Assembly: GCF_010093535.1 (NCBI RefSeq)
Contig: NW_022985170.1
Coordinates: 1,531,278-1,595,277 of the forward strand
From: Lindgomyces ingoldianus
Lineage: Eukaryota > Ascomycota > Dothideomycetes > Pleosporales > Lindgomycetaceae
Direction: 5' to 3'
DNA: 64,000 nt
Made by a program: the position numbers and the translations under genes
Notes under the pieces: generated by a model
Told to the model about the DNA's origin: nothing
Seen by the model: only the letters and a program-made list of their open reading frames with translations
The model's database searches: none
Part shown: one piece after another, positions 38,695 through 47,292 of the stretch
How the letters are laid out: the number at the start of each line of letters is the position of its first letter
Numbering within the stretch: position 1 is the first letter of the stretch

Positions 38695-40985
38695 TCAATC
38701 ACCAGACTCTCGTGTTAGGCCACAGCCTGAAAACCCGTGGAAGTTATATCCGTTCGGGAGATGTCTCATATCCGGCATCTCCAGATAAGATCTTGTCAGA
38801 TTTGGTGTGTTATGGTCGCTATACACAGCATCAATGCTGTTGATTTGCCCTGCACTTCCAAACCACAGTGGGTCGGCATTCCACTCACCACTAGCCGTAG
38901 CGTTTGGTGAAGGAGTTTCTCCAACCTGCTCTGGAGACCGGCCCTCGTAAGCCTCGGATTCAGATTGCTCATACATGATTGAGTGTCCTTGAGACGCGTT
39001 GTCTGAATGGATTTGTGGCGCGGAAGACGGCACGCTCATCATTCTGTGTCGGTGTCGATTCAAGATGAACTCCGGGTTTGGCTTCTCAGGTATTGCCTTG
39101 ACCAAGACACCGGTAGATGTTGCAAGCATGCTGATTGCTCGCTCAAGGAAATCGGCAGACTTTGACGACAACCGCAGGGTCCAACGATATTCGTCAAGTT
39201 TTGCTTTATACAGATCTGCCTCTTCTTTGTCTTGTGCTGTTGCCCATAGCAAAGATGTGAATGTTCCAATCAGAGCAAAGCAATACTTCGAGGCTGAATA
39301 CCAGAAGGATTGAAGGTGTTCAGGACGAAGGCTCTTCACAAACTCCATTGCCGATTTGAGGCGGGCATTGGCGGCTTGACGGCAGATTCCTCTGAGTGAT
39401 GGGTCGTCGACCGAAGAAAGGGAGCGAATGATCTGGCGATGAAGCGTTATTCCAACGGCATAATAGCCCAGGTGGAGATATCCTAGGATAATTATGAGCC
39501 TACCTTTCAGACACAAGGGATACTAAATATACCTGTTGAAGATAACTTTCTCATAGTAATGTCCTCCATCCTCAGAGAAGGTGGCAGATTGTCGAACCAG
39601 TGTTTGAGGGACGACTGTATCGGGTTTGCTTTTTCAAGCAACCAACGTACACCTTCCTGTGCACGTTGCCTAAACTCTTCCTCAGTCTTCAGAGTGTAGA
39701 AATTTGACAATATGGAACCAAGAATCTCAGTAAGCTGTATCATTTCGCAGAAAAGTGCGCGACCTTTCTCGACTTCGGTACTACCGTCTTCGTTGTCTTC
39801 ATCGGCCGCATTCTCGGGGAAATCGTCTTCATGAAGCGGTTGGACAGCCCAATCCGAAGCTATTATGTGTGATGGCCGACCATGCACAAGAGCTCCCCAC
39901 TTGTCCTGCATGAAAAGAGCCCACGCCAGTCGTTTCCGCAGTCCCCGCTCCCAGGATGGAATCCTCCAGCTTGAACAATCCAGATGGAGGCCAAGATCCT
40001 GCCCGATTCCCACTAGCTGTGTAGTTAAAGCCCAGGAGTCGCCTTCTGGCCGCTGAAGTAAAAGAAGGCCAGCTTGAATCGTCGAGAGTTTTGGTCGGTG
40101 TATTATGTCGTTCATCGTTTTGAAAGCCAACTTCTCCAGCCGTGGCACGTCGGGTTTTGGGAGCAAAGCCAGCTCACTGCTATACGTCCACCAGTTCAAA
40201 GCTAGGATGTAGACTGCAGCAAGTAGTGGCGGAGAGAATTCCCGATGCGTCCGCTGGTATTTTTCCAGAAAAACCCTCTTGTGCAAGATGGGAAAGCTGG
40301 GATGCACAATCCGGAAATATAAGTGTATCAAGGCTTGACCATGAGGAGCGACTAAGGTCTCGATTGCATCCAGGTCTAGGATCTCATCTTCATGGTTTCT
40401 CGTACCGTCGTCCGGAGACAAAACAAAAGCAGTGTCGAGAGCATTAACCTTTCGTAGAGCTGAAAGGCCAACCGGCACTTCCTCTTTGTTATGGTAGTCG
40501 TTAAGCTCCAGGAGTAGTTGTTCATATTGGGATGTCGAGCCTATTAGGCGGCTATGTCGGTGATTTTGCAATCCCAGCGTCTTCTTTAGAAGGGAGGGTC
40601 CTTTCAGATTGGCGTAGTTGTCGACTGGTTGGTCTTGACGAATCTTCGGGGCATCTGCAGGCGAATATCCCGGAACCCAAAGCTTTTCCTGTGTTGGAGG
40701 TGGAGCGCGGCGCGGAGCCTCCCCTTTCGAGTTGTGCTCTTCTTCACTCAAAGATGCCGCCTTCCGTTTCCTTGGCTGGGGATCTTCCAGAAAGGTACAC
40801 TCTTGGCGATGAAATCGACACAAGACGCAAGGAGGGGCGCCGTCCACTATCTCGCATCGCGATTTCCTGCGCCGGCACGAATCACAGGGGCGGCGGGACC
40901 TTGTTTTACTCGCCCCTGTAGCATCATTCGGGGCCGTATAAAAGTCGTTTGGAGAGATTGATTGAGTAGGACTGAAGTTCATCAT
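38695..40985 (-). CDS. Zn2Cys6 transcription factor, TamA/Dal81-like
   Basis: Two exons on the minus strand: 40985-39533 and 39482-38695, giving 746 aa. The 50-bp intron joins RKLSSTG to YLHLGYYAVGITLHRQIIRS; the earlier AG would give an intron of only 29 bp. The zinc cluster is C34-x2-C37-x6-C44-x8-C53-x2-C56-x6-C63 (RRPCDSCRRRKSRC and CVLCRFHRQEC), followed by the basic PQPRKRK. The fungal TF middle homology region includes LIHLYFRIVHPSFPILHK and DLGLHLDCSSW. The Zn cluster and the body resemble the Aspergillus TamA / yeast Dal81 co-activators of nitrogen-catabolic genes. It lies next to a permease and a nitrogen-releasing fusion enzyme, so a pathway role is likely. Two genes in the same strand (this and the permease) are tandem, with the hydrolase divergent. 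Confidence 0.85.
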
Positions 40986-42099
40986 TTCATTTGAGCTCTG
41001 TTATTCTGATTAGCTCCATAATATTACTATCCTTAAAGGAAGAAGGAGAAGAGCATGGATGGAACTGAGGTGAATGTGGAAAGTTCCATGTGAAAGTAGC
41101 AGCAAGCCATTCAGCCAGAATGAGGCTTCAAAAAGCAAGTGACCGGGCACGTCAGGGGGCTACCATGTGTCACCAAGCACTTGGGCGTGCGCCTATTCTA
41201 AAGAAAATATTTCGCGTCTCCAATGACATGCGGATAGGATGATCGCTGTTTAGGAGGGTTTACAGAAGAGGGTGGAAGGTAATTATCCTTGTGAGGAACT
41301 TGTGTGTGTTTAATGATTCCCTTCTTCTGCTAGATTCTAGCCAAAATTGACAACGGGGAAGTGTATTCGTTAAGACTTCATGTTGAGCTCAAGGCTCGAT
41401 AAAGTAACGCATACAAGAAGGTGGCCACTTACCTATTGCACGGAACCTGGTGATCTCGGGAGTGAAGATCATACGAAGCCTGGCCCGATCTGGAATAGGC
41501 GTGTCATGCTCAAACTGGTCTGCGTGGCGGTATCGGCAAGCTATAGGAGACGGTCGAATGATCTCGCTGGAGTGTGCCAAAAGCGGTGTTGAAGCGTCAA
41601 ATTTTCACAGGGAACAGGGCACTGATGAGGAATGTATTTGAAGAAGAATTGCAAACAAGGCGGAGCTTTAATGTGTATCCAGCCCCGTGGTGCTGGAAAT
41701 CTTTGGCTGGCTCGGTGATGTGGGGTGGGGAATAAGATACAAGCCAGATACGGAGGGAAGAGACCGGAGGCATTTGTGCAGGCCGGCCTTGGACATGGAG
41801 AAAAAACAGCGTGGTGGTGTCTTGAGGTAAAGATAAGATGTTGAATGACTGGACCAATCATCCAACTACATTAGCGAAAATTACATCAGCCACACTGCTA
41901 ATAGTAACATCTGACCAGCCTCTCGCCTGAGCCCTCATCCACCAGAAAGGTTACTGGACAGGGTTTAACTAAACAATAGTGGTCATTACAATCCCATAAG
42001 TCCTTACTAGACAACTCCTTAGCGTTAAACTTATTCCCCGTCGCATTCCTTCATTTAAACTTAGTCAGTCATGTTATTTACGCGGTAGTGTACGGCATC
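40986..42099. other. Regulator promoter and permease 3' flank
   Basis: About 1.1 kb. GATA-type motifs are present at 41397-41402 (CGATAA) and 41831-41836 (AGATAA), which could place the regulator itself under nitrogen control. Short open frames look random. Confidence 0.45.
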
Positions 42100-44270
42100 T
42101 CAAACCATAGTCGCAATCTCCTTCTCCTTCGTGACATAGCCATCCTTGGAATTAGAATTGGAATCGGTGTCCTCTCCTTTAACGACAGGGGTTGTCTCTT
42201 CACTGGTCTTTGGTGGATACGCAGCCTCTTCGACGAGGGATTCGGTCGGGACAGAGATGTAGGTGCAGATAACATAATGCACCAGGAAGGAAAGCGTGAA
42301 TCCAAAAATCCAGGCAAAAGTATAAATCTTCCAGGCGCCTCCCACATTAAGAGTGTTCTCGATGGATTTAGCGAATCCTGGCATAAGCGGGGCGAAGCCG
42401 ATTATGAAAGAGGCGTATGCACGCCAGTTAACGCCATGTTCATACCAGTAGATACCGCGGTCGGTATAAAGCTGATCAACATCGAGTTTCCTCTTCTTGA
42501 TGATGTAGTAGTCGCAGACCATTGTTCCAGCAAGAGGACCCATGAGGCAAGAGTAACCGGAGAGGAATGCAAGAAGTCCAGAGGCGTTCTTGATGATATT
42601 CCATGGTGTTGAGATTATACAGAAAAGGGAGATGAAGCAAGTTGCCCGAAAGATGTTGATGTACTTGGGCGCCATTCCCGTGATGTCGTTGGAGAATGGA
42701 TACGTTCCAGCGGCGATCTGGTTGCCAATTGTTGCCAGGATGAAGCTGGCCGCGGTGAAAAACTTAGCAGCTCTGCTATCGAACTTCGCGATGACCAAAG
42801 GCATGTACCATTGGAATTCGCCCCACAATACCGAGTGAGCACTGGTGACAAAAATAGGAGTGAGGGCACCCAGCGTTCCTTTGCAAATTTAGCCAGAGAG
42901 TTAAAACAATTCACAGACAAACGTACCAATAATCGGAAGCGCCATAAATTGGTGACCGCCTGCGAGATTGTTCTTCGAAAATCGTCCGAAGTCAGGCATA
43001 TTGACAGCAAGGGAGCTGAAAAGACCAATCATGACATTCAGACCCGTCAAGGCCGAGTAGGCGGTGTTCATATACGTAGAAGTGAGTTCAACCTTGCCGG
43101 TAACAAGTGGTCCGCCACTATCATCTCATCAGCATGTATGTTGCCGAGCCAGATTTAAGAACTTACCCCTTAGTGACAATGACGGCCCATAGGAACAAAG
43201 CTAGGAAAGTCGGGGGCACGACTACACCTTTGACCCAGAACAAGATTCGAAGCTTTTGGATAGGCATAAGAGCAAGCCCTGTCTGCATGAACCAATAAAG
43301 AAACACGCAAAGCAAGCCGGCGGCTGAGACTATATTAGACCAATTCTTCAGGGTTTTGCAGCAGACAGCATACAATCAATACCCGCGCTTTCGGGAAGAT
43401 GGTTTGGAAAGCTTATGAAACTAGGCCAAATGGCTTCAAGGCAGCGCTGGAGGAAGTTTCCAGCTTGGACGGTAAGGATCGCAGTCCACATAAGAGCGAC
43501 AAATGCTAATATTCGTATGAGTTTATGTCATTCTAATGGTTGTGGGAAACGATACCTCGAATACAGATAGCAGGAAACGACCCGTACATCCCGAAAACGG
43601 ATCGAACAATGACAGGGAACGGGACATGGTAGGTAGAACCTATTACTTGATTAATGTCCCCTTCGAGGGAAACGCTAAGGATCTTTGGAGAACCCAGTTT
43701 GACGCACCCATCTTGCCTGTCAAAGTAATCACCACACTACAGATGAGGAATCCAAAGAAAACAATGGGGATTGTCTCTCTAGCAGTGAAGCCCAAGCTCA
43801 TCACACTAGAAACCGTAGCCGCGAGAGGAGGGGCGAGCATATCAGAGCACCCTGATCCAGTAATTAGACACCATATCATTGAACTCTTTAGAGATTGAAG
43901 GAATTGCTTACAATATGCCCAGTAGTCGATGCCGCCCCATGTCCTTTCTGCAGGAGGAATCGGGTCAAGGTCTAATTACAAGTTAGCGGTTCCAAGACAG
44001 GTCGGTGTTAGGTAGTACAGCAAGTTATCAATTAACATAGAATATGATTAGGGTGGACTTAATCCGCTCAACCCCTTGCTGGAATCGAGGAGAATGTCAA
44101 TGGGATAAAAAACATATCCTGAAATGCCCGATTGTCATGTTCTCCATTACATGGCGAGATGTAGTAGCAGAAATCTTACCCTTGTTGGACCATCGAGAGC
44201 CATACTTTCCACTCTCAAACGGTACCCTCAACCGGAAGTGAGGAGAAAGCCTGGATTTGAGAACAGACAT
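42100..44270 (-). CDS. NCS1-family permease (uracil/allantoin/purine-type transporter)
   Basis: Eight exons on the minus strand: 44270-44180, 43971-43912, 43851-43708, 43639-43556, 43505-43383, 43329-43167, 43117-42927, 42878-42100, giving 544 aa with all joins in frame. The start is MSVLKSRLSPHFRLRVPFES; then DLDPIPPAERTWGGIDYWAY, the NCS1 entry motif, and WCSDMLAPPLAATVSSVMSL, STYHVPFPVIVRSVFGMYGS and VNMPDFGRFSKNNL. The last exon holds NQIAAGTYPFSNDITGMAPK and SGYSCLMGPLAGTMVCDYYI. About 12 membrane segments are expected. Fungal NCS1 members (Fur/Fcy type) take up uracil, allantoin, uridine, cytosine or purines with protons across the plasma membrane. The substrate cannot be fixed from sequence. 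Its divergent neighbour is a biuret/allophanate-type hydrolase, so a urea-like or ureide substrate is the working guess. Confidence 0.92.
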
Positions 44271-45041: not shown

Positions 45042-47292
45042 ATGTCTTCGACTAAAGATGTCCTTTCAGTCCTATCAATCGACGCGAAGCCATACATATA
45101 TTCCTTTCCCCTTCAACATACCGCACTCCTCGTGATTGATATGCAAAGAGACTTCTTGCTCGCAAAAGGCTTCGGGGAGATTCAAGGAGGTAATTTGGAG
45201 GCCGTCCAGGCTTCGATTACTCCTACCAGGAAGCTACTTGAGGCATGTAGAGGTGCTGGGATGACTATTGTACACACTCGTGAGGGCCACGTTCCCGACT
45301 TGTCGGACTGTCCGTCCTCGAAGCTTGTCAGACAAGCTGCTACTCCCAACAATACACAGCACAACCTCATCATTGGCGATAAGGGTGAGCTCGGACGACT
45401 TCTTGTGCGGGGAGAGTACGGTCATGACATTATTGATGAATTGAAACCGCTTCCTGGAGAGGTTGTGATTGACAAACCTGGAAAGGGCTCCTTCTGGAAT
45501 ACGGCCATCTTGCACAAACTAAAAGCTCGAGCAATTACCCACCTCATTGTCTCTGGTGTCACGACAGAGTGCTGCTTTGCAACTTCCATCCGAGAAGCTA
45601 ATGACCGTGGATTCGAATGCTGTGAGTTCCAACGACCTAACTGGCATGCCAAATCGCTGACAGCCTGTAGGTGGTATCGTGGAGGCTACAAGCGGTTACA
45701 ACGACAGCAATTTCAAGCAATGCAGTCTTGACATGATCCATTGGTCTCAAGGTCTCTTCGGCTTTGTCGCCAACCTCCAACCCCTCCTGGATGCCCTCAC
45801 ACCTCTTGGAATCCAAAGCGTCACCGGCAGTTCCACTCCTCCACAAACACCCCCAGACTTTGATGGCAACCTTACAATTTCCAGTCTCCAAAAAGCATTC
45901 AAGAACGGCCTTTCTCCAGTTACAGTTATCGAGGCGCTCTACAACAAAATCGAAGCCTACCATAGGGTCGATCCTGCCGTATGGATCTATCTCGAGTCTC
46001 GAGAGAACGCACTTGATGCCGCAAAAGCCCTCACAGTCAAGTACTCTGATAGAAGCGCCCTTCCACCCCTTTTCGGGGTTCCATTCAGTGTCAAAGATAG
46101 TATCGATATTACAGGCTTGCCTACCACAACTGCCTGTCCACCACTCACCCATGTCCCTTCAGCTTCTGCCGTCGTCTACGACAAATGTCTCGCTGAAGGT
46201 GCCCTTTTCATCGGCAAGACCAACCTAGACCAATTAGCAACTGGCCTTACAGGCTGCCGCAGCCCTTACGGTATTCCCCACTCTGTCTTCCACAAAGACT
46301 ACATCAGCGGCGGTTCCAGCAGCGGCAACGCCGTGAGCGTAGGCGCAAACCTCGTTTCCTTCTCACTTGCAACTGACACCGCGGGCTCCGGTCGCGTTCC
46401 GCCCGGATTCAATGGAGTCGTAGGCTACAAACCTACACGAGGCACGATTTCATTCCGTGGTGTAACGCCCGCTTGTCTGTCCTTGGATTGCATAGCACTC
46501 ACCACGCACACCATTTCAGACGCAAGATCTCTCTGGCAGATCCTTGAGGAATACGATCCCCTAGACCAGTATTCCAAACCCGTCATTTCCTTTGAACGAC
46601 ACATCAACTCCATCGGCCCACAAGCCCGAGCCTTCAAATTCGGGATCCCACCCCAAAAAGCCCTTTCTCTGTGTTCCTTCCCACATCGCCGCAAATTCAA
46701 TGAAACCGTCGCCACGCTGCAAAAACTCGGGGGTGTGCTCACACCTATTGACTGGTCACCCTTTCAAAACGCCGGAAAGCTTCTTTACGACGGGACATTT
46801 GTTTCAGAGCGGCTCGCCTCATTACCAGACGACTGGCTAGGCAAAAGCCGCTCATTACTACACCCAGTTATTGTGCAATTAATGGATGCTGTTGTTGAAC
46901 GGCAAAGCACCGCCGTGCAAGCATATCGCGATCTCCAGGCCAAAGCAATCTACACCCGACAAGCCGAACAAGTGTTCTCGTACTCAGCGACTGGGATTGA
47001 TGTCCTCGTTGTGCCTACTGCGCCTACACATTGGAAGATATCGGAAGTGCTTGCAGATCCGATTAAGAAGAATAGCCATCTCGGCGAGTTCACGCATTGT
47101 GGGAATGTGCTCGATTTGTGCGGGGTTGCTGTTCCTGCGGGTACTTACCCTGTCAAAGAGCTCAGTGGGAATGAGGCTGATGAAGGTGAACTCCCTTTCA
47201 GTGTGACTTTCCTTAGCGGGTCGAGGATGGATGCGGAGATGTTGGAGATAGCGAGGAGGTTTGAGGAGAGTATGAAGGAGAATGCTTGCTAG
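45042..47292 (+). CDS. Bifunctional hydrolase: isochorismatase-type (biuret-hydrolase-like) fused to allophanate-hydrolase-type amidase
   Basis: Two exons: 45042-45621 and 45671-47292, giving 733 aa. The 49-bp intron (GTGAGT...CTGTAG) is inside the first domain and the join FECC-GIVEATSGYND continues it, so this is one protein. Domain 1 (about 20-245): cysteine hydrolase of the isochorismatase superfamily with triad Asp33 (LLVIDMQRDF), Lys145 (DKPGKGSFWNT) and Cys178 (SGVTTECCFATSIREANDRG). BiuH and RutB are close relatives of this type. Domain 2 (about 260-730): amidase signature with Lys335 (GVPFSVKDSID), the cis-Ser in ISGGSSSGNAVSV and Ser433 in the allophanate-hydrolase mark ATDTAGSGRVP; NLDQLATGLTGCRSPYG agrees. 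Predicted reactions: biuret to allophanate plus ammonia, then allophanate to ammonia and CO2. The C-terminal domain of full-length allophanate hydrolases is missing. Divergent from an NCS1 permease. Fold assignments are firm, substrates inferred. Confidence 0.88.

Follow-up and report, generated by a model that had tools for sequence, protein, structure and literature searches.

A 64,000-nucleotide stretch of the Lindgomyces ingoldianus genome (the window: NCBI RefSeq assembly GCF_010093535.1, contig NW_022985170.1, positions 1,531,278 to 1,595,277 of the forward strand) contains a gene whose predicted product joins two enzymes in one chain. Its first domain (domain 1) is a cysteine hydrolase of the family of triuret hydrolase (TrtA) and biuret hydrolase (BiuH) and resembles TrtA; its second (domain 2) is an amidase of the allophanate hydrolase (AtzF) type. 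This one fungal protein may well take a condensed urea, most probably triuret, apart in steps that each release ammonia. If so, filamentous ascomycetes can draw nitrogen by an unrecognised route from condensed ureas (impurities of urea fertiliser and possible products of uric acid oxidation; PMC7948467), and a task usually spread over several enzymes in bacteria is done by a single protein. The features of the gene are as follows (window positions).

45042-47292, + strand: whole fusion gene; 733 residues after splicing (predicted)
45042-45621, + strand: exon 1; residues 1-193 and the first base of codon 194, the bulk of the cysteine hydrolase domain
45622-45670, + strand: intron of 49 nt, GTGAGT...CTGAC...TAG
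45671-47292, + strand: exon 2; end of the cysteine hydrolase domain, linker, amidase domain and stop
45069-45801, + strand, across the intron: domain 1 (TrtA/BiuH-type isochorismatase-like cysteine hydrolase), residues 10-237, with Asp33, Lys145, Cys178 and a second lysine, Lys148
45573-45575, + strand: codon of the catalytic Cys178, aligned with TrtA C162
45742-45756, + strand: remodelled part of the distal pocket, codons 218-222 (W-S-Q-G-L), with Ser219 at the place of TrtA Q202 and BiuH Q215
45925-47241, + strand: domain 2 (allophanate-hydrolase-type amidase), residues 279-717, with Lys335, Ser409/Ser410 and Ser433
within residues 279-717, + strand: substrate-site residues of domain 2, Gly385, Tyr566 and Arg574
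46387-46389, + strand: codon of the nucleophile Ser433, from the sequence

Architecture and relatives of the fusion

The spliced product was identical to a predicted L. ingoldianus protein at NCBI (P0001, 100% identity over 733 residues), and Pfam recognised Amidase (3.6e-69) and Isochorismatase (2.9e-34) in it, with no further domain. The initial annotation had described an isochorismatase-type domain fused to an amidase in one gene, with catalytic residues D33, K145, C178, K335 and S433. All five stand at these positions of the spliced translation, both Pfam domains are present, the same architecture occurs in relatives, and the two-domain fusion is confirmed as real. The description of the intron as in-frame was mistaken: 49 nt is not a multiple of three, and a retained intron stops the frame after 229 codons.

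Of 7,999 candidates scored in a protein search with the fusion, 7,675 passed at E 1e-3; the best 120, the gene's own entry included, were examined, and figures from all protein searches below likewise refer to the best 120 matches. The initial annotation had proposed looking for the architecture in other fungi, and it was found in 120/120 of these matches, each with both Pfam domains. Six organisms that were looked up belonged to six Pezizomycotina classes (Dothideomycetes, Eurotiomycetes, Lecanoromycetes, Sordariomycetes, Geoglossomycetes and Coniocybomycetes); for many of the 120 rows, the label fungal rests on similarity. The catalytic residues, whose loss in an alignment had been named as grounds for doubt, were kept in nearly all of the 120 relatives: D33 and K145 in 118 each (2 gaps each), C178 in 119 (1 gap), and K335 and S433 in 120/120. 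The interdomain linker was partly conserved. Database names of these proteins ('amidase signature enzyme', 'allophanate hydrolase', 'glutamyl-tRNA amidotransferase subunit A') are silent on the function of the first domain.

When the proteins from a search with domain 1 were aligned to the fusion, the match ended at residues 190-198, the exon end, in 90 of 120, and the intron position is therefore widely shared. This pattern supports the predicted splice independently of this one gene model. Two genes wrongly joined by annotation would be an explanation of negligible probability, given that the relatives share the architecture, the exon end and part of the linker.

A search of titles and abstract openings in the open literature gave no description of this fusion, and an earlier mention is possible; searches there also gave nothing pertinent on biuret use by fungi or on a fungal cyanuric acid hydrolase. 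The TrtA paper places triuret genes 'in some fungi and phytoplankton' and does not contain the words 'fusion' or 'fused'. Among the best 120 matches, Stagonospora nodorum (P0043) and Bipolaris maydis (P0072), the latter also known as Cochliobolus heterostrophus, have the fusion. Both species are among three Dothideomycetes in which a 2011 survey recorded an amidase outside urea amidolyase; its text does not mention isochorismatase (PMC3073912). We infer that these records reflect the amidase part of the fusion.

Relationships of the two domains

The NCBIfam BiuH model gave domain 1 217 bits, below its cut-off of 370 bits (NF050097), and the RutB model gave 87 bits. A ureidoacrylate hydrolase (RutB) was rejected, with a TIGR03614 cut-off of 378 bits; within the isochorismatase-like family, domain 1 does belong with BiuH and TrtA. 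The best solved match was TrtA (205 bits, compared with 175 for BiuH). Mean identity was 49.9% to 80 bacterial TrtA rows and 43.0% to 36 of the 37 BiuH-type rows (the truncated L058_22 was left out). The genome scan covered the best 80 of 576 relatives. Thirteen positions distinguish TrtA from BiuH; there the fungal letter is that of TrtA at 5, of BiuH at 0 and of neither at 8. The TrtA consensus residues F35, E160 and Y187 are kept, as are the Asp-Lys-Cys triad and the second lysine of TrtA. Two N-terminal strands (residues 10-13 and 20-23) were predicted in a model of the relative P0121 (76% identical; predicted local distance difference test score, pLDDT, 88.9), and a two-strand N-terminal sheet of TrtA is described in the TrtA paper as lost in BiuH. 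The full-length AlphaFold model of the fusion had a pLDDT of 62, with a shallow alignment.

In a tree restricted to TrtA and BiuH, without an outgroup, the fungal domains formed one clade (100/100) and BiuH another (100/99). Constraining fungi and BiuH together, a group chosen after a first tree had been viewed, cost 9.2 log-likelihood units (approximately unbiased, AU, test, p = 0.032). Very distant outgroups blurred the domain 1 tree. By these sequence comparisons domain 1 is nearer to TrtA than to BiuH. The initial annotation had called it biuret-hydrolase-like; because of the TrtA resemblance, and because the biuret-binding glutamine of BiuH is a serine here, biuret hydrolase becomes one option and not the default. 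Its wording 'BiuH/AtzE-type' also mixed unrelated enzymes, AtzE being an amidase and BiuH a cysteine hydrolase (PMC5806882).

Domain 2 scored 440 and 411 bits with the NCBIfam allophanate hydrolase models and 132 and 129 bits with the AtzE models. The allophanate hydrolase cut-offs (487 and 511 bits) were not reached. The fusion lacks the C-terminal domain of AtzF, the TIGR02713 match stopping at 413 of 563, and this accounts for at least part of the shortfall. An AtzE identity, for which the cut-offs are 461 and 426 bits, was rejected. The best solved structures were allophanate hydrolases (322 bits for 4GYR, and 315 bits), with 92 bits for AtzE (6c62). The catalytic set of allophanate hydrolase (Lys, cis-Ser, Ser) is complete. 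Equivalents of G124, S172, Y299 and R307, which we take to be the residues of Granulibacter allophanate hydrolase in a numbering that reportedly goes back to Lin and St Maurice 2013, were placed by spacing. These equivalents (Gly385, Ser433, Tyr566 and Arg574) were present in the 3 fungal, 3 solved and 6 prokaryotic sequences compared, and those of G124, Y299 and R307 were absent from three of three further amidases of this genome. All 120 fusion rows have Tyr566 and Arg574.

Judged by length (at most 50 residues beyond the match), 16 of 26 untruncated bacterial relatives with genes near TrtA have no C-terminal domain either (L079, cut by a contig end, was left out), and haloarchaeal AtzF is likewise short. 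An AtzF construct reduced to its amidase part stayed active (PMC3944691).

In the amidase tree the fungal domain formed its own clade (100/100), apart from the domain of Kluyveromyces lactis DUR1,2, and a derivation from fungal DUR1,2 was ruled out by this position (one DUR1,2 sequence). Its nearest neighbours were two Rhizobium AtzF variants, with weak support (93/66) and a long fungal stem. Neither fungal domain could be placed within one bacterial lineage, both standing on long stems. On bit scores, solved-structure matches, substrate-site residues and tree, the amidase half fits an allophanate hydrolase, as had been proposed at the outset. The motif ATDTAGSGRVP, named then as the mark of that enzyme, is present but is not a general one: the native solved enzymes compared read GTDTAGSGR, and the A form (ATDTAGSGR) is common to the actinobacterial AtzF of locus L047 and the bacterial AtzF-TrtA fusions described below.

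Two Rhizobium plasmid operons (L042 and L045) carry beside atzF an isochorismatase-like gene without the catalytic Cys (L042:5989-6627, reading GLPTEG, and L045:4743-5345, reading GLPTDG). The AtzF motif of L042 reads NDAAGSGRVP.

Distal pocket, putative substrate and mechanism

In TrtA, Q202 (Q215 in BiuH) extends into the site of the partner subunit and grips the far end of the substrate, and N41 is its hydrogen-bond partner. Gln occupies this position in 117/117 bacterial rows and Ser in 120/120 fusion rows, where the next residue is Gln (108), Glu (10) or Lys (2). At the N41 position, 114 of the 120 fusion rows have Gly and the rest Ala, Ser or Asp. Further fixed fungal changes lie near the pocket (TrtA positions 39, 201, 203 and 205), beside the catalytic Cys (161) and elsewhere (46, 89, 186 and 188, and an insertion at residues 102-107). 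In the loop before the distal stretch, 11 of 17 aligned fusions lack the extra residue of the window's protein; counted by hand, these 11 do not differ in length from TrtA up to that stretch, which makes a simple register error unlikely. On the proximal side, the binding residues (Asp33, the two Lys, Glu81 and Thr174) persist in nearly all 120 rows.

Beside TrtA and BiuH, the fungal domain reads as a third specificity class within their family; its substrate is putative, and it would be a third natural solution to the specificity problem, after Gln (TrtA and BiuH) and Glu (guanylurea hydrolase). Single mutations in TrtA failed to solve that problem. Replacing the Gln of BiuH by Ala lowered kcat/KM from 149,742 to 357 (PMC5806882), and biuret use by domain 1 is therefore not to be assumed.

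We infer every substrate and reaction in the following scheme, in which the residues themselves are observed. Cys178, activated by Asp33 and Lys145, would attack a terminal carboxamide, giving ammonia and a terminal carboxylate; the product would be carboxybiuret from triuret, or allophanate if biuret were the substrate. In the amidase domain (Ser433, cis-Ser, Lys335), Tyr566 and Arg574 would hold the carboxylate while the other terminal amide is cut, and the products would then fall apart to CO2, ammonia or urea. Leaked urea would be no loss, because the genome has a urease gene. A divergent NCS1-type permease would import the ureide.

Two observations weigh against triuret as the substrate or against the TrtA affinity behind it. 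The combination of Q202 with N41 and I205 that TrtA has is absent in fungi, which have Ser, Gly and Leu. The link between fungal domains and TrtA (83/90) is not firm, and comes with a long fungal stem from a tree rooted by an outgroup row read in the wrong frame. Caution also comes from the urea amidolyase of K. lactis, in which allophanate passes between the fused parts by free diffusion (PMC5770610).

That domain 1 is instead a biuret hydrolase feeding allophanate to domain 2, with the pocket changes W218, S219, Q220 and G50 marking a separate fungal path to biuret use that set out from a TrtA-like scaffold, is a possibility we regard as doubtful. Biuret alone becomes the exact domain 2 substrate in a single step, no other BiuH above the cut-off was found in the fungal genome, and the haloarchaeal genes for a BiuH-type enzyme and a short AtzF, in one frame and one stop codon apart, form a unit. 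Against this count the separating positions (five TrtA letters, no BiuH letter), the loss of BiuH Gln215, the score of 217 bits against the 370 of the BiuH model, and the AU test against a fungi and BiuH group (p = 0.032), the group having been named after the first tree.

It is unlikely that domain 1 acts on some other ureide or carboxamide, with the loss of Gln and Asn reflecting a different far end of the substrate. Among the fixed fungal changes are some in the lid and the distal pocket (TrtA positions 39, 41, 201-203 and 205), and the presumed guanylurea hydrolase BB_00025 of plasmid pMET-2 has Glu at the aligned Q202 place. Conversely, the proximal binding residues are retained, and the partner domain keeps allophanate hydrolase residues, which points to a ureide with a terminal carboxylate after the first step.

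The carboxybiuret that TrtA makes from triuret turns into biuret, its half-life being about 20 minutes; in Pseudomonas ADP, AtzE acts directly on carboxybiuret, so that no biuret dead end arises (PMC6219798). A search of the L. ingoldianus genome gave no BiuH above the cut-off. Biuret would have to be a substrate of domain 1, or else carboxybiuret a substrate of domain 2. For catching the unstable product, an amidase in the same chain would be a natural device. Tentatively, then, the protein could be a BiuH-free triuret pathway in one chain, in which a domain 1 of the third specificity class supplies carboxybiuret and the amidase catches it before it decays to biuret, filling, on an allophanate hydrolase scaffold, the role that AtzE has in an atrazine-degrading bacterium. 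If true, this would explain the reverse-order bacterial fusions and the BiuH-free actinobacterial genomes with TrtA and a short AtzF. The fused protein makes testable how such a pathway runs without BiuH.

Genomic context and comparison with known systems

The pairing of TrtA with AtzF was searched with two neighbouring Actinomadura genes as the query, scored on the TrtA part only and limited by length to long proteins. Five of the best 120 matches (P0311, P0313, P0316, P0319 and P0320) were bacterial-type proteins with AtzF and TrtA fused in reverse order, and the four that were put in a tree all fell inside Actinomycetota AtzF. By motif, 40 of the best 120 were BiuH-then-TrtA tandems from green algae and other organisms, such as Chlamydomonas reinhardtii P0260 (full sequence inspected) and Micractinium P0245. 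The initial annotation's statement that the two steps are separate proteins in bacteria does not always hold, since the reverse-order fusions group with Actinomycetota; algae have the BiuH-TrtA tandems. To judge from these sequences, fusion between TrtA and allophanate hydrolase seems to have arisen at least twice. Some Cellulomonas proteins (P0351 and relatives) have carbamate kinase fused to a TrtA-like domain.

TrtA and AtzF genes also occur together in bacterial operons. An allophanate hydrolase lay near 27 of the 80 bacterial TrtA loci, and 17 of these 27 had no second BiuH/TrtA-like gene. All 14 actinobacterial loci of the 17 (L079, L112 and L114 were left out) were searched genome-wide for BiuH, with 5 of the 10 loci that have a second BiuH/TrtA-like gene as controls. 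No BiuH above the cut-off was found in 12 of the 14 genomes, some of which may be incomplete drafts; BiuH was present elsewhere in the genome in 2/14, and all 5 control genomes gave a BiuH match. TrtA and AtzF are separated by another gene at two of the 14 loci (L047 and L060). Urea carboxylase above the cut-off was found in 5 of the 12 BiuH-free genomes, so that their AtzF may have a second use.

On a plasmid of Natronorubrum daqingense (L041:5800-8043), a BiuH-type gene and a short atzF abut in one frame, a single stop codon apart, and a cytosine permease is also near this haloarchaeal pair. Proteins of 531-610 residues stand beside TrtA in four BiuH-free actinobacterial loci (L046:5709-7301, L111:5721-7394, L089:5549-7312 and L073:5498-7327) and gave no Pfam match at 1e-8. 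The L046 protein is rich in hydrophobic stretches and transporter-like, and GntR/FCD regulators lie near 3 of the 4 loci.

Upstream of the fusion in the window, two features lie on the opposite strand.

42100-44270, - strand: NCS1-type permease (cytosine/purine/uracil/allantoin family, Pfam PF02133), multi-exon; start and exon boundaries provisional
39513-41000, - strand: Zn2Cys6/Fungal_trans transcription factor, an open frame adjoining the permease

The permease is transcribed divergently from the fusion, its likely ATG lying about 770 bp from that of the fusion.

The genome has one clear allophanate hydrolase (412 bits, next best 136), and a second was rejected on these scores. One other TrtA/BiuH-like protein was found, a stand-alone BiuH-family protein on contig C21 (C21:518519-519178; L035:1477-2280, - strand), with 51% identity to a Pseudomonas mendocina cysteine hydrolase encoded on plasmid pMET-2. 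The plasmid and a deaminase neighbour lead us to take the latter for guanylurea hydrolase BB_00025. Both have Glu at the TrtA Q202 position, the C21 protein also has Arg at K132, and it is a candidate fungal guanylurea hydrolase. Frames resembling a multi-pass permease lie near the C21 gene. An isochorismatase-family match at C24:196251-197018 lies within an open frame of 1062 residues, a possible further fusion.

A urea-carboxylase-like gene on contig C70 (C70:2558-7420, L129) bears on the idea that the amidase domain works for a urea carboxylase with domain 1 as an incidental passenger, which we consider very improbable. This gene adjoins a LamB/YcsF gene, a neighbour that presumably points to 5-oxoproline metabolism rather than urea and suggests that the C70 gene serves the former. 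The catalytic residues of domain 1 are, moreover, kept in nearly all relatives. The 2011 survey reports amidase and urea carboxylase together in many Dothideomycetes, and an amidase without urea carboxylase in Mycosphaerella graminicola, whose amidase is not confirmed to be this fusion (PMC3073912).

Compared with TrtA (Herbaspirillum sp. BH-1; PDB 6XIX, 6XJE and 6XJ4), the fungal protein differs in being fused to an amidase, and in domain 1 Q202 has become Ser, N41 Gly, A201 Trp, G203 Gln, I205 Leu and V161 Cys. BiuH (Rhizobium leguminosarum; PDB 6AZO and 6AZQ) is 44% identical to domain 1 and has the same triad and second Lys, whereas its Y/Y/D/T letters at separating sites and its Gln215 are absent from the fungal domain. 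AtzF (PDB 4CP8, 4GYR and 4ISS) is like domain 2 in the K-S-S set and the G124, Y299 and R307 equivalents; the fungal domain differs in lacking the C-terminal domain, in being fused to domain 1, and in having Thr/Ser-Phe for Pro/Ala-Trp in the Tyr-to-Arg segment of the 3 fungal sequences examined. DUR1,2 urea amidolyase is also a fungal fusion with an allophanate hydrolase inside, but its partner is a urea carboxylase, which the present chain lacks (Pfam: Amidase and Isochorismatase only). The bacterial AtzF-TrtA fusions combine the same two enzyme families, with TrtA sitting where the C-terminal domain of AtzF would be; unlike the fungal fusion, they have the reverse domain order and TrtA letters, including the Gln.
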